From positions 1 through 41,782 of IMG/VR virus record IMGVR_UViG_3300045242_000151: 41,782 nt of DNA. The stretch is one strand, 5' to 3'. Positions 154-41,782 of this stretch are shown in pieces. Within the stretch, counting starts at the first letter, position 1. Each line of letters opens with the position of its first letter. The position numbers were made by a program, and so were the translations under genes. Origin of the DNA: a virus. The notes under the pieces are model-generated. The model searched no databases. It was not told the DNA's origin and saw only the letters and a program-made list of their open reading frames with translations.

Positions 154-609
154 TCACGACAGCGCCTCCACGTAGTCGCGGATGCGGTCGGTGATGCGGA
201 ACCACTCGCCATGCGAGCGGTCAGACCGGAAGCGCCGATGCAGGTCGTGCTCGCTTCGGACGCTGCCGCGGGTCGTCGCCCACAACTCGAGCGGAAACGG
301 GCTCGCGGTCGCCAGCCGGTCGAGCCTCTTCGTCGGCTCGGACGAGTAGCCGATCTTCACGAACCCGCCGCCGCGGATGAAGTAGATCCAGCCCGTATCT
401 AGAGGAGGCTCAGGCGGCAGGAGGGCGGGAACCGTCGGCGCCTCGAAGCACGCCTTGCAGAAACCAACCAGGCCGTCGTGCCACCACTGGGTCTTCTCAA
501 CGTGCTCAAAGAGCCACGCGGCCGGCTGGTCGCAGTTCAGGCACTGCTCGCCGTCAGCGATCGAGACAACGCGGATCAGGTGATGCTGGAGCGTCCACTT
601 CCACGTCAT
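154..609 (-). CDS. T5orf172/MUG113-type GIY-YIG-like protein
   Basis: The 151-residue product ends in a domain of the T5orf172/MUG113 family, a GIY-YIG-nuclease relative common in phages: GWIYFIRGGGFVKIGYS, then RLATASPFPLEL, then a His-rich HDLHRRF helix and GEWFRI. The first ~70 residues hold a CxxC (CLNCDQ) and a second CxxC-like CKAC, suggesting a zinc knuckle ahead of the domain. I start it at ATG 609 because GGAG lies 9 nt upstream; an in-frame GTG at 663 lacks a ribosome site. Family members bind or cut DNA; the biochemical role here is not shown. It lies only in variant A, between the transglycosylase and the attachment site, and resembles the N-terminal half of the fusion at 6707-7738. 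Confidence 0.7.
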   Translation of the reverse strand: MTWKWTLQHHLIRVVSIADGEQCLNCDQPAAWLFEHVEKTQWWHDGLVGFCKACFEAPTVPALLPPEPPLDTGWIYFIRGGGFVKIGYSSEPTKRLDRLATASPFPLELWATTRGSVRSEHDLHRRFRSDRSHGEWFRITDRIRDYVEALS

Positions 610-776
610 CGCGTGGCACTCCGAGGAGAGAGATGCGGGGCGCCCTTGGAAGGCGACGGACACACGTTCGCGCGTGTGTCGACGTCAGCTAGTGCCGCTC
701 TAGTCGCCCCGCCGCGGCAGACCTGGAGAGACGTTACATTTTTGGCTTCACTGCACGGTTTGTGCAGGTACACATC

Positions 777-7739: not shown

Positions 7740-8069
7740 TCACGCGGCGTTCTCATTGCGCTTGACTGCCGCGGCGAGGAGGTCGTAATCGAGGGTCACC
7801 GTCACAGTCACGGGTAGATCGCCCTCCTTGTCGTCCTCGTCCTCGAAAAAAGCGGCCGGCTGCTCCGTCGCCTCAGCGATCCGCACACGGAAGACAGGGC
7901 CGGGGCGGTGCAGACCCTTCTCGATGCGGATCATGTGCCGCCGCGACGTTGCGATTTCGTTCGCGAGGCGTTCCTGCGAGATGCCTTTCTGTTTACGAGC
8001 CCAGACGATCCGTTCGTTGAGCGGCAGCTTGCGAGCGGCTGCTTCGGGGAGATCCAATAGAGGTGTCAC
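7740..8069 (-). CDS. XRE-family regulator, Cro-like (leaderless)
   Basis: 109 residues. A helix-turn-helix of the XRE type occupies residues ~18-70: NERIVWARKQKGISQERLAN, then SRRHMIRIEKGLHRP. The tail is acidic (EDEDDKEGD) then beta-like. It lacks a peptidase or dimer domain of a CI repressor, and it is the first gene of the long early operon, so a Cro-like role is inferred. The GTG start has no ribosome site. The promoter at 8077-8105 places transcription start at about this codon, so the mRNA is probably leaderless. The start codon lies within an operator palindrome (8063-8076). Confidence 0.85.
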   Translation of the reverse strand: MTPLLDLPEAAARKLPLNERIVWARKQKGISQERLANEIATSRRHMIRIEKGLHRPGPVFRVRIAEATEQPAAFFEDEDDKEGDLPVTVTVTLDYDLLAAAVKRNENAA

Positions 8070-8076
8070 GGGACAC
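8063..8076. promoter_or_regulatory. Operator palindrome O1 over the early start codon
   Basis: GTGTC-ACGG-GACAC, a 5-bp inverted repeat with a 4-nt centre. It covers the GTG start and predicted transcription start of the 7740-8069 gene. Its half-site GTCACGGG recurs in the other two palindromes of this intergenic region. Confidence 0.65.
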
Positions 8077-8105
8077 AGTATGCGTCACGGGGCGTCCCGT
8101 GTCAA
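8077..8105 (-). promoter_or_regulatory. Sigma-70-type early promoter
   Basis: Reading leftward: -35 TTGACA (8105-8100, perfect consensus), a 17-nt spacer, and -10 CATACT (8082-8077, 4 of 6). The expected start is about 8070, at the GTG of the Cro-like gene, so the transcript would lack a leader. Palindrome O2 fills the spacer and O1 covers the start, ideal positions for repression. Confidence 0.75.
8086..8101. promoter_or_regulatory. Operator palindrome O2 between -35 and -10
   Basis: CACGGG-GCGT-CCCGTG, a perfect 6-bp inverted repeat, extended imperfectly to GTCACGGG/CCCGTGTC. It lies inside the spacer of the leftward promoter, so a bound repressor would exclude RNA polymerase. Confidence 0.7.
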
Positions 8106-8117
8106 ACACGATGTCCC

Positions 8118-8144
8118 TTGCCGTTGCCCGCTCCTTGCTACAAA
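8118..8144 (+). promoter_or_regulatory. Candidate rightward promoter
   Basis: TTGCCG (8118-8123) and TACAAA (8139-8144), spaced by only 15 nt, so weak. The predicted start near 8151 would fall at the GTG of the plus-strand regulator, giving a leaderless mRNA like its divergent partner. A weak promoter would suit repressor maintenance, but this is inference. Confidence 0.4.
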
Positions 8145-8146
8145 GT

Positions 8147-8160
8147 GCGTCACGTGACGC
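8147..8160. promoter_or_regulatory. Operator palindrome O3 over the plus-strand start codon
   Basis: GCGTCACGTGACGC, a perfect 14-bp palindrome. The GTG at its centre (8154-8156) is the proposed start codon of the plus-strand regulator. The half-site GCGTCAC also begins the O2 region at 8082-8088. Confidence 0.7.
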
Positions 8161-8438
8161 CACGTGGTAAGCCGGATGACACCCTCTCGGGGGCGATCAT
8201 CAAACTCCGCCAACGCGTCGGCTCGCAGGTCAAACTCGCGAAGCTAGTAGAGACAAGCGAGCGGACGGTGAAGCGATGGGAGGGCGGAGTCGTCCCTCAG
8301 AAGAAGTTCCGTCCGGCGCTTATCGCGCAGGGGGTGGATGCTCGACTGTTCGAGGACGCTGCGGAACGGGAGCAGATGAGGAAGCGTCTGCGCTTCGTCG
8401 AGAGCGAGGTTGCGAAGCTGAATGAGCTTCTAGCATGA
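8154..8438 (+). CDS. Helix-turn-helix regulator, candidate immunity repressor (leaderless)
   Basis: 94 residues. An HTH is seen at ~8-45: LSGAIIKLRQRVGSQVKLAK, then TSERTVKRWEGG. The rest (FEDAAEREQMRKRLRFVESE...) is a predicted coiled coil with leucine spacing, suited to dimerisation. It is the only regulator transcribed away from the lytic operon and it is monocistronic, so I infer the lysogenic repressor role. I start it at GTG 8154, at the centre of a palindrome. Earlier TTG/GTG codons in frame have no ribosome site and would fall upstream of the predicted transcription start. Transcription ends at the hairpin 8646-8694. Confidence 0.75.
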   Translation: MTPRGKPDDTLSGAIIKLRQRVGSQVKLAKLVETSERTVKRWEGGVVPQKKFRPALIAQGVDARLFEDAAEREQMRKRLRFVESEVAKLNELLA

Positions 8439-40595: not shown

Positions 40596-40666
40596 GGCCA
40601 GTGGGCGGGACGGCTACGCAGGGGCCTGCAAAGCCTCGCAATCCGGTTCGACTCCGGAACTGGCCT
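40596..40666 (+). tRNA. tRNA-Cys (GCA)
   Basis: A complete cloverleaf of 71 nt. Acceptor GGCCAGT/ACTGGCC; D-arm GCG/CGC with a 9-nt loop; anticodon arm GGGGC/GCCTC with loop CTGCAAA, anticodon GCA at 40628-40630; 4-nt variable loop; T-arm TCCGG/CCGGA with TTCGACT. Discriminator T at 40666 is the cysteine identity base. CCA is not encoded. The T-arm sequence is nearly that of E. coli cysT. Its 3' end lies 6 nt from the integrase B stop, the usual attachment layout. Unlike the displaced end in variant A, both halves are present, so it may be a functional phage copy or the integrated host gene. Confidence 0.93.
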
Positions 40667-40672
40667 TCTCAC

Positions 40673-41662
40673 CTAGACCTTCGCCTTGAGGAGGTCGCGC
40701 ATCCGGTCGCCAATCACCCGCGTCCCGGTATGCACATAAAGATCCGAAGTGGTTTTGACGGAAGCGTGTCCGAGGATCTTCTGGAGGTCGTCGAGCGCGA
40801 GCCCACGCATCCGCCACCGTGTTGCGAACGTGTGTCTGGCGCAATGTGGATTGCCGTGCCCGGTGATGCCCGCCTTCGGGTTGCGCTTGATGTAGGCAAC
40901 GCGGGCGTCGTCGAGGCAGCGGTACCACCAACGGCCGAACGAGGTAGGGGCGATCGGTTGGCTACGGCGCAACTGCGTAGCGAAGCTACCGCCGGGTTTG
41001 TCGTACCAGAGATAGTCGGACGGCTTCAACCTCGCGTCAGAGATCAGGAAGTCCATCGCCATCGCCAGGCTCGGAACGATCGGAACCAGCCTCTCCTTGC
41101 CGCCCTTCGCGCCCTCCTTGACCATCACCATGCCGGCGTCGAAGTCGATCCGCTCGACGCGCATCTGGCAGGCTTCCTCACGGCGCAGACCCGTCTCGAA
41201 CAGGAGCGTCATCAGGGGGCCGTCGGGGAGCGGAAGAGCTTCGAGCCTGAGTTGCTCGGCCTCGCTGAACACGTCGATGATCGGTTGGGCGTGCTGCTTC
41301 ATGGCGGGCAGGTAGGACACCGGGTTGACTTTCAGGCCCGTCACATGCCGCTTGCGCAGCCCCCAGGCAAACCAGTTGTTGAGGTGGGCCTTGCGGACGC
41401 GCCGGCTCTTGACGGGGAACGTCAGGAGGCAGGTGATGAGGTCGTCCTCCCCGAACTCGTTGAACGCCCGGTCGGGGTACAGGTTCATGAGCACGGCGGC
41501 AGTACGCTTGTAAGCGTCGCAGGAGCCAAAGCCGCCGAGCTCGAGCCATTCTTGCCAGGCCAGAAACTCCTGCGCTGACCTGGCAGTCAGGTGCCGGGTG
41601 TCCCGCAGAGGCTCGTCAGCATACGCTCCGTCCCCGTCCGCATACCACTCAAGAGCGCTCAT
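40673..41662 (-). CDS. int: Tyrosine integrase B
   Basis: 329 residues with the catalytic set R160 (GLRREEA), K186 (GAKGGKE), H273 and R276 (HCARHT), H299 (LGHAS), nucleophile Y309 (SDLYVH). N-terminal core-binding part ~25-110. It shares only MS with integrase A at the start; their sequences otherwise align only at catalytic motifs, so they are distant members. ATG 41662 overlaps the upstream stop as ATGA, exactly as integrase A does. It should integrate at tRNA-Cys, whose 3' end it directly faces. Confidence 0.95.
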   Translation of the reverse strand: MSALEWYADGDGAYADEPLRDTRHLTARSAQEFLAWQEWLELGGFGSCDAYKRTAAVLMNLYPDRAFNEFGEDDLITCLLTFPVKSRRVRKAHLNNWFAWGLRKRHVTGLKVNPVSYLPAMKQHAQPIIDVFSEAEQLRLEALPLPDGPLMTLLFETGLRREEACQMRVERIDFDAGMVMVKEGAKGGKERLVPIVPSLAMAMDFLISDARLKPSDYLWYDKPGGSFATQLRRSQPIAPTSFGRWWYRCLDDARVAYIKRNPKAGITGHGNPHCARHTFATRWRMRGLALDDLQKILGHASVKTTSDLYVHTGTRVIGDRMRDLLKAKV

Positions 41663-41782
41663 CCCGTCTCCTCGCCAGCGTCGGGGGTTTCCGTGCCGCC
41701 CTGCTCGAGCGCCGCCAGCAGAGGCATGACGTGCAGCCCGATGCACGCACCAAGCGCGGAGTCTCCCGGGGTCGGGTAGCCC
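41656..41782. repeat. 127-bp exact terminal repeat, right copy
   Basis: Identical to 1847-1973 and flush with the window end. Joining the copies closes a circle of 39,809 bp that contains integrase B, tRNA-Cys and the whole core. Divergence begins immediately upstream of 41656. Confidence 0.9.
41659..41782 (-). CDS. 3' end of the unknown coiled-coil early gene (second copy)
   Basis: The last ~40 codons of the gene also found at 1850-2374, cut by the window end. The sequence reads GYPTPGDSALGACIGLHVMP to the same stop and overlaps the integrase B start by 4 nt. If the genome is circular this is the same gene seen twice. Confidence 0.85.
   Translation of the reverse strand, partial: GYPTPGDSALGACIGLHVMPLLAALEQGGTETPDAGEETG

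Follow-up and report, generated by a model that had tools for sequence, protein, structure and literature searches.

A predicted leaderless divergent switch with operator-like palindromes centred on both regulator start codons in a metagenomic phage

Analysis of a 41,782-base IMG/VR virus record (hereafter the window, meaning the whole stretch of DNA analysed), which carries integrase, P22-like portal and terminase genes, revealed two divergent regulator genes whose GTG start codons lie 84 bp apart, each directly beside the axis of an operator-like palindrome. We consider it likely that this region is a temperate-phage switch of the lambda/PY54 style, leaderless on both sides, in which operators, transcription starts and start codons coincide. 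On both sides, a single 10-bp word would then act as putative repressor site and as the start of RNA and protein, an extreme compression of a switch, and the arrangement is conserved among phages whose genes mostly differ.

Divergent regulator genes, promoters and translation signals

Nearly all predicted genes of the window point leftward, and the sole plus-strand protein gene in the predicted gene list (8154-8438) is opposed to the leftward gene at 7740-8069 (minus strand). The left gene starts at GTG8069 and encodes a 109-aa XRE-type helix-turn-helix (HTH) protein with matches to Pfam HTH_19 (2.4e-5) and PHROG 2439 (7e-9); in its AlphaFold model the HTH domain has a pLDDT of ~90 and the tail is disordered. 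The nearest folds in the PDB are C.BclI, SinR, C.AhdI and P22 c2, none with an E-value below 0.001, and plasmid matches to this protein were dismissed as relatives, being generic HTH matches. The gene occupies the Cro position at the head of a leftward recombination/methylase operon with Dam-type methylase, second methylase, exonuclease VIII and Sak4-like genes. The right gene, starting at GTG8154, encodes 94 aa matching Pfam P22_Cro (0.0017) and the PHROG 35 repressor (1.9e-4), for which a low-confidence model gives an HTH followed by a long C-terminal helix. With no other protein gene predicted on the plus strand, the product of this gene is, by position, the candidate lysogeny repressor. 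HTH matches are therefore found on both sides of the 84-bp region, and a regulator of the early operon faces a lone regulator on the opposite strand, as in CI/Cro-type pairs. A domain search found no S24 peptidase domain in either protein. Neither regulator has a relative among the named phages searched, and a protein alignment search gave no match in 84,980 genomes.

The promoter that the first-pass annotation had placed ahead of the left gene is present, with its -35 element TTGACA at 8105-8100 and its -10 element CATACT at 8082-8077 on the minus strand, a 17-bp spacer between them (8099-8083) and 7 nt from the -10 element to GTG8069 (8069-8067), which is the earliest possible start codon in this reading frame. 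It scores 10/12 against the consensus, a value attained by ~0.04% of RTG triplets, and on this measure is predicted to be strong and to drive the early operon. A right promoter, which the annotation had missed, shows the same spacer and start-codon gap (17 bp, 7 nt): a weak -35 element, TTGCCG (8118-8123, plus strand), is followed by the -10 element CAAAGT (8141-8146) ahead of GTG8154. Its score is 7/12, and ~3% of RTG triplets do as well.

The claim that both genes lack ribosome sites was borne out, with anti-Shine-Dalgarno duplex energies of only -2.4 and -1.6 kcal/mol at the two starts, a property expected of a doubly leaderless switch of the type of phage PY54, discussed below. By comparison, 31 of 48 other predicted genes reach -5 kcal/mol or better, in a hand count for which some starts are possibly misassigned; eight other genes likewise lie above -2.5 kcal/mol, so that absence of a Shine-Dalgarno (SD) sequence is not unique to the switch. 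From the promoter register at six starts, two of them in the window and four in related phages, both mRNAs are predicted to be leaderless, with transcription starting at the start codons. Many bacteria may initiate inefficiently at leaderless GTG codons, which counts against this reading. The terminase and integrase matches of the window phage gave no host, being remote and mixed. For translation in mycobacteria, a GTG or ATG at +1 is both required and sufficient, and leaderless GTG mRNAs are well translated there (PMC4633059); therefore, hosts of this kind, at least, would support the arrangement.

Operator-like palindromes and their recurrence in two phages

The repeats first annotated as O1 and O2 and the palindrome on the right can all be interpreted as copies of a single motif, GTCAC·GTGAC (the dot marks the axis), and four GTCACGTGAC-like sites stand within 94 bp across both promoters. 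Site 1, GTCACGGGAC (8065-8074; GTCCC·GTGAC on the minus strand, one mismatch), has its axis on the 5' edge of GTG8069. O1 covers the left start codon, as had been proposed, and reads GTGTCCC·GTGACAC, with 6/7 pairs and its dyad axis on that same edge. Sites 2 and 3, GTCACGGGGC (8084-8093) and GTCCCGTGTC (8094-8103), each with two mismatches, fall in the left promoter spacer and in the spacer/-35 region, respectively. The annotation had described a single operator, O2, filling this spacer; its repeat, CACGGG-4-CCCGTG at 8086-8101, is real, but it is better read as two degenerate 10-mers, beginning at 8084 and 8094. Site 4, GCGTCAC·GTGACGC (8147-8160), is the perfect 14-bp palindrome reported around GTG8154, with an exact copy of the motif (no mismatches) at 8149 and the GTG immediately to the right of the axis. 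Both genes begin GTG-AC with a palindrome axis at the 5' edge of the GTG, in agreement with the earlier proposal that half-site and start codon coincide.

The palindrome itself is not what is unusual here; its position at start triplets is. Perfect 14-bp palindromes are not enriched in the window (4 seen, 5.85 expected in shuffles), and the significance of such a palindrome alone was rejected on this count; likewise, the genome as a whole shows no excess of GTCACGTGAC with up to two mismatches (19 seen, ~34 expected). Among 2123 ATG and GTG triplets of the window (both strands, a site being counted per strand), the 8154 site alone is surrounded by at least five contiguous pairs, and a looser cut-off of 6/7 pairs adds GTG8069 plus two unrelated triplets. 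In the 43.8 kb of one related phage, G001, the only two start triplets with at least five contiguous pairs are both regulator starts. Outside the switch, the motif with at most one mismatch occurs once in the window (at 2630) and not in G001, and this near confinement suggests a putative switch-only regulon. Tandem clusters of GTCACGTGAC palindromes were also observed in unrelated viral contigs returned by the scan for motif pairs described below (L015, L016, L017 and L018), up to seven copies within 82 bp in L015, with no regulator gene starting there; these are perhaps iterons or binding arrays of another protein.

The search for an equal layout in related phages, which the first-pass annotation had recommended, identified two IMG/VR phages, G001 (43,789 bases; loci L002/L003) and L011 (41,221 bases), giving a comparison set of three phages, all metagenomic. 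Both carry divergent regulator genes with GTG-AC at a palindrome axis; their promoters keep the register seen in the window, and no SD is visible upstream of the four starts. Taken over the three phages, six of six starts are GTG-AC with a promoter spacer of 17 bp and a gap of 6-8 nt between the -10 element and the GTG.

Locus L002 of G001 was found by protein search; L021 was rejected as a false protein match. The left proteins of the window and G001 are 67% identical over the HTH and 55% overall, and the two phages otherwise share few genes, mainly an integrase (~35%) and one small early gene, with no match in G001 to the window terminase. The 84-bp intergenic region of G001 has 69% ungapped identity to that of the window, the first 60 nt of either gene are identical at 24/60 positions (40%), and the motif offsets (0, +19, +29 and +84) are the same in both. 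The G001 promoters are TTGACA-17-TATAAC-7-GTG (left) and TTTACA-17-GAAAGT-7-GTG (right), and its left GTG is likewise the earliest start of its frame. The small early gene (PHROG 8130/4284) comes next after the left regulator in G001 (L005:6980-7372, plus strand); the copy in the window, which is endonuclease-like, lies at 154-663 (minus strand), ~7 kb downstream of the regulator.

The scan of contigs for motif pairs spaced 72-102 bp apart returned 13, including G001 and L011. The eleven others were rejected as palindromes without convincing regulator ORFs, L008 and L014 among them despite their 84-bp spacing. In L011, HTH genes lie on both sides with GTG-AC at the axes, 93 bp apart, behind the promoters TTGACA-17-CATGTT-6-GTG (left) and TTACGA-17-CAAAAT-8-GTG (right), and the left protein is 38-46% identical to those of the window and G001. 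The left -35 element and spacer length are thus identical in all three phages, and a site homologous to site 1 occupies the same place in each. Site 2 (+19) is kept in G001 and absent from L011, and site 3 is found at +29 in G001 and at +28 in L011. At the -35 region of the right promoter (window 8111-8119), a conserved word, possibly an operator half-site, reads TGTCCCTT in the window and L011 and CGTCTCTT in G001.

The recognition helix of the left protein (TSRRHMIRIE in the window and G001, MTRRHLIRVE in L011) is kept while the rest of the protein diverges. The right proteins are 26-36% identical, with TSERTVKRW, APRETVNRW and TSRRQTIRW at the corresponding helix, and that of L002 gave no Pfam HTH match. 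As the left recognition helix is conserved together with the motif and the right one is not, the left protein is likelier than the right protein to be the general reader of the motif, which the right protein may read too. The joint conservation of motif and left helix lends further support to reading these sites as putative operators.

Proposed mechanism and alternative readings

In the switch that we propose, each gene would be read from a sigma-70-type promoter firing on, or within ~1 nucleotide of, the G of its GTG, and the operator GTCAC·GTGAC would be centred on each transcription start and start codon, with degenerate copies in the left spacer and -35 region. The left protein, and perhaps also the right one, would bind these sites as a dimer, cover +1 and exclude RNA polymerase, thereby shutting either promoter, while the spacer copies would raise occupancy at the strong left promoter. 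A strong left promoter for the early operon and a weak right promoter for the lone regulator would follow the logic of lambda PR/PRM. Because the perfect site sits on the right gene in the window and in L011, the right gene would be shut first at low protein levels, as Cro does at OR3. The downstream half-site GTGAC doubles as the first codons, so that all six proteins are predicted to begin fMet-Thr, and a change of operator specificity, as in an immunity swap, is predicted to alter the first codons of both regulators. The blocking of a regulator's own initiation region, suggested in the first-pass annotation, would amount to DNA occlusion of the transcription start only, since a leaderless mRNA would carry only one half of the palindrome. 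A need for looping, considered in view of the 84-bp (eight-turn) separation, is weakened by the 93 bp of L011.

More tentatively, and with rather less than even confidence, we propose that selection acts on operator, transcription start and start codon together, as a single element, which would define a class of "start-codon operator" switches. The fMet-Thr half would retain the sequence GTGAC for its role as the operator's coding-side half-site, and the leaderless state would be retained since without it the axis would not lie at +1. Such switches would be expected in temperate phages of leaderless-tolerant hosts, with regulator specificity co-evolving with the N-terminus of both regulators. 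The layout itself offers a sequence signature for leaderless regulators in uncultured phages, where transcript data do not exist.

The alternative that survives best, although we regard it as unlikely, is that the left side alone is leaderless and start-repressed, the right gene being expressed from another start or promoter with the palindrome as a nearby operator. The weakness of the right promoter would allow for this, two further starts (GTG8145 and TTG8118) lie in frame upstream, and CGTCACGTGACG would serve as a good operator anywhere nearby. Yet the upstream starts have no SD either, and in three of three right genes the 17-bp spacer and a gap of 7-8 nt recur (with GAAAGT in G001 and CAAAAT in L011 as equivalents of the -10 element) and the palindrome axis falls exactly at GTG-AC.

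Somewhat less probable still is an accessory autoregulated controller, similar to the C proteins of restriction-modification (R-M) systems or to antitoxins, with the left gene as controller, in place of a lysis/lysogeny switch. The folds nearest to the left protein include C.BclI, SinR and C.AhdI, a Dam-type gene follows the left gene, and it is common for C genes to be leaderless and to have C-boxes within the promoter (PMC4824078). Against this, methyltransferases were found but no R-M endonuclease among the proteins scanned, which were part of the gene set; the genes after the left gene in G001 are instead those for RecT, an exonuclease and an integrase, the records carry phage genes including integrases, and three of three phages have an opposed regulator-like gene that carries a matching operator of its own. 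That the start palindromes are chance products of GC-rich sequence with no regulatory work, as the shuffles and the lack of genome-wide enrichment might permit, is very improbable given their near-unique position at start triplets in each genome and the motif, spacing and register shared by three diverged phages.

Relation to known systems and features of the source record

At lambda OR, a weak promoter serves the lone divergent regulator, a strong one serves the early operon, and several operators share one motif; lambda cro has a leader, and the 17-bp lambda operators are not centred on start codons. The window switch resembles lambda OR/PRM in its promoter asymmetry, its repeated operator motif and its predicted leaderless repressor mRNA, and differs from it in these last two features of lambda, the leadered cro and the operators lying off the start codons. 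The lambda cI mRNA is cited as leaderless in passages of PMC4488713 and PMC3017554. In the Yersinia telomere phage PY54, RACE showed that the cI and cro mRNAs are both leaderless, starting at AUG, and here too divergent HTH regulators flank a short intergenic region with a palindromic operator (PMC4488713). In the PY54 region, however, 19 bp separate the centre of the OR3 palindrome from the edge of the cI start, and neither AUG stands at a palindrome axis (1/9 and 2/9 pairs); the starts are ATG rather than the GTG of the window phage, and the sequences are unrelated.

Operators over transcription starts are known from several other systems. According to those sections of PMC4557955 that describe the operators of mycobacteriophage BPs 33-34, a small HTH repressor has one operator in the spacer of the early promoter PR and a second over the Prep transcription start, with ~113 bp between the two; by contrast with the window, each operator consists of two 12-bp half-sites, several further operators occur in the genome, and no start-codon coincidence is reported in those sections. 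In the CvkR/cas12k pair of type V-K CAST, the genes are divergent, 82 nt apart and both leaderless, with a palindromic CvkR site in the Pcas12k spacer and a site at the tnsB promoter that overlaps the transcription start (PMC9938897), whereas the repressor belongs to the MerR family, the element is a transposon and not a phage, and the operator is not centred on both start codons. Similarly, the R-M C proteins (PMC4824078), which include the folds nearest to the left protein, and AcuR (PMC3017554) are encoded by autoregulated leaderless genes with promoter palindromes, but these lack a divergent partner regulator with a matching start-codon operator, and the operator of AcuR lies ahead of the ATG, where it overlaps the promoter (PMC3017554). 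Each element of the proposed switch, that is, a leaderless CI/Cro pair, operators over transcription starts and a leaderless divergent pair, is already known. What appears to be new is the centring of operators on both start codons, as no such case was found in the open-access literature text searched.

Two further observations concern the record itself. A complete tRNA-Cys(GCA) gene at 40596-40666 (plus strand), directly past the 3' end of the integrase gene, marks a likely attachment region, and the 3' half of the tRNA has no exact match in the 84,980 genomes. In addition, an exact 127-bp direct repeat links 1847-1973 with 41656-41782, and it is the shared 5' end of two tyrosine-recombinase ORFs, 840-1937 and 40673-41746 (both minus strand), that are ~30% identical overall. 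As 127 is a common assembler k-mer, the contig may close as a circle of ~39.8 kb at 1847, with 1-1846 as an alternative branch carrying another integrase allele.
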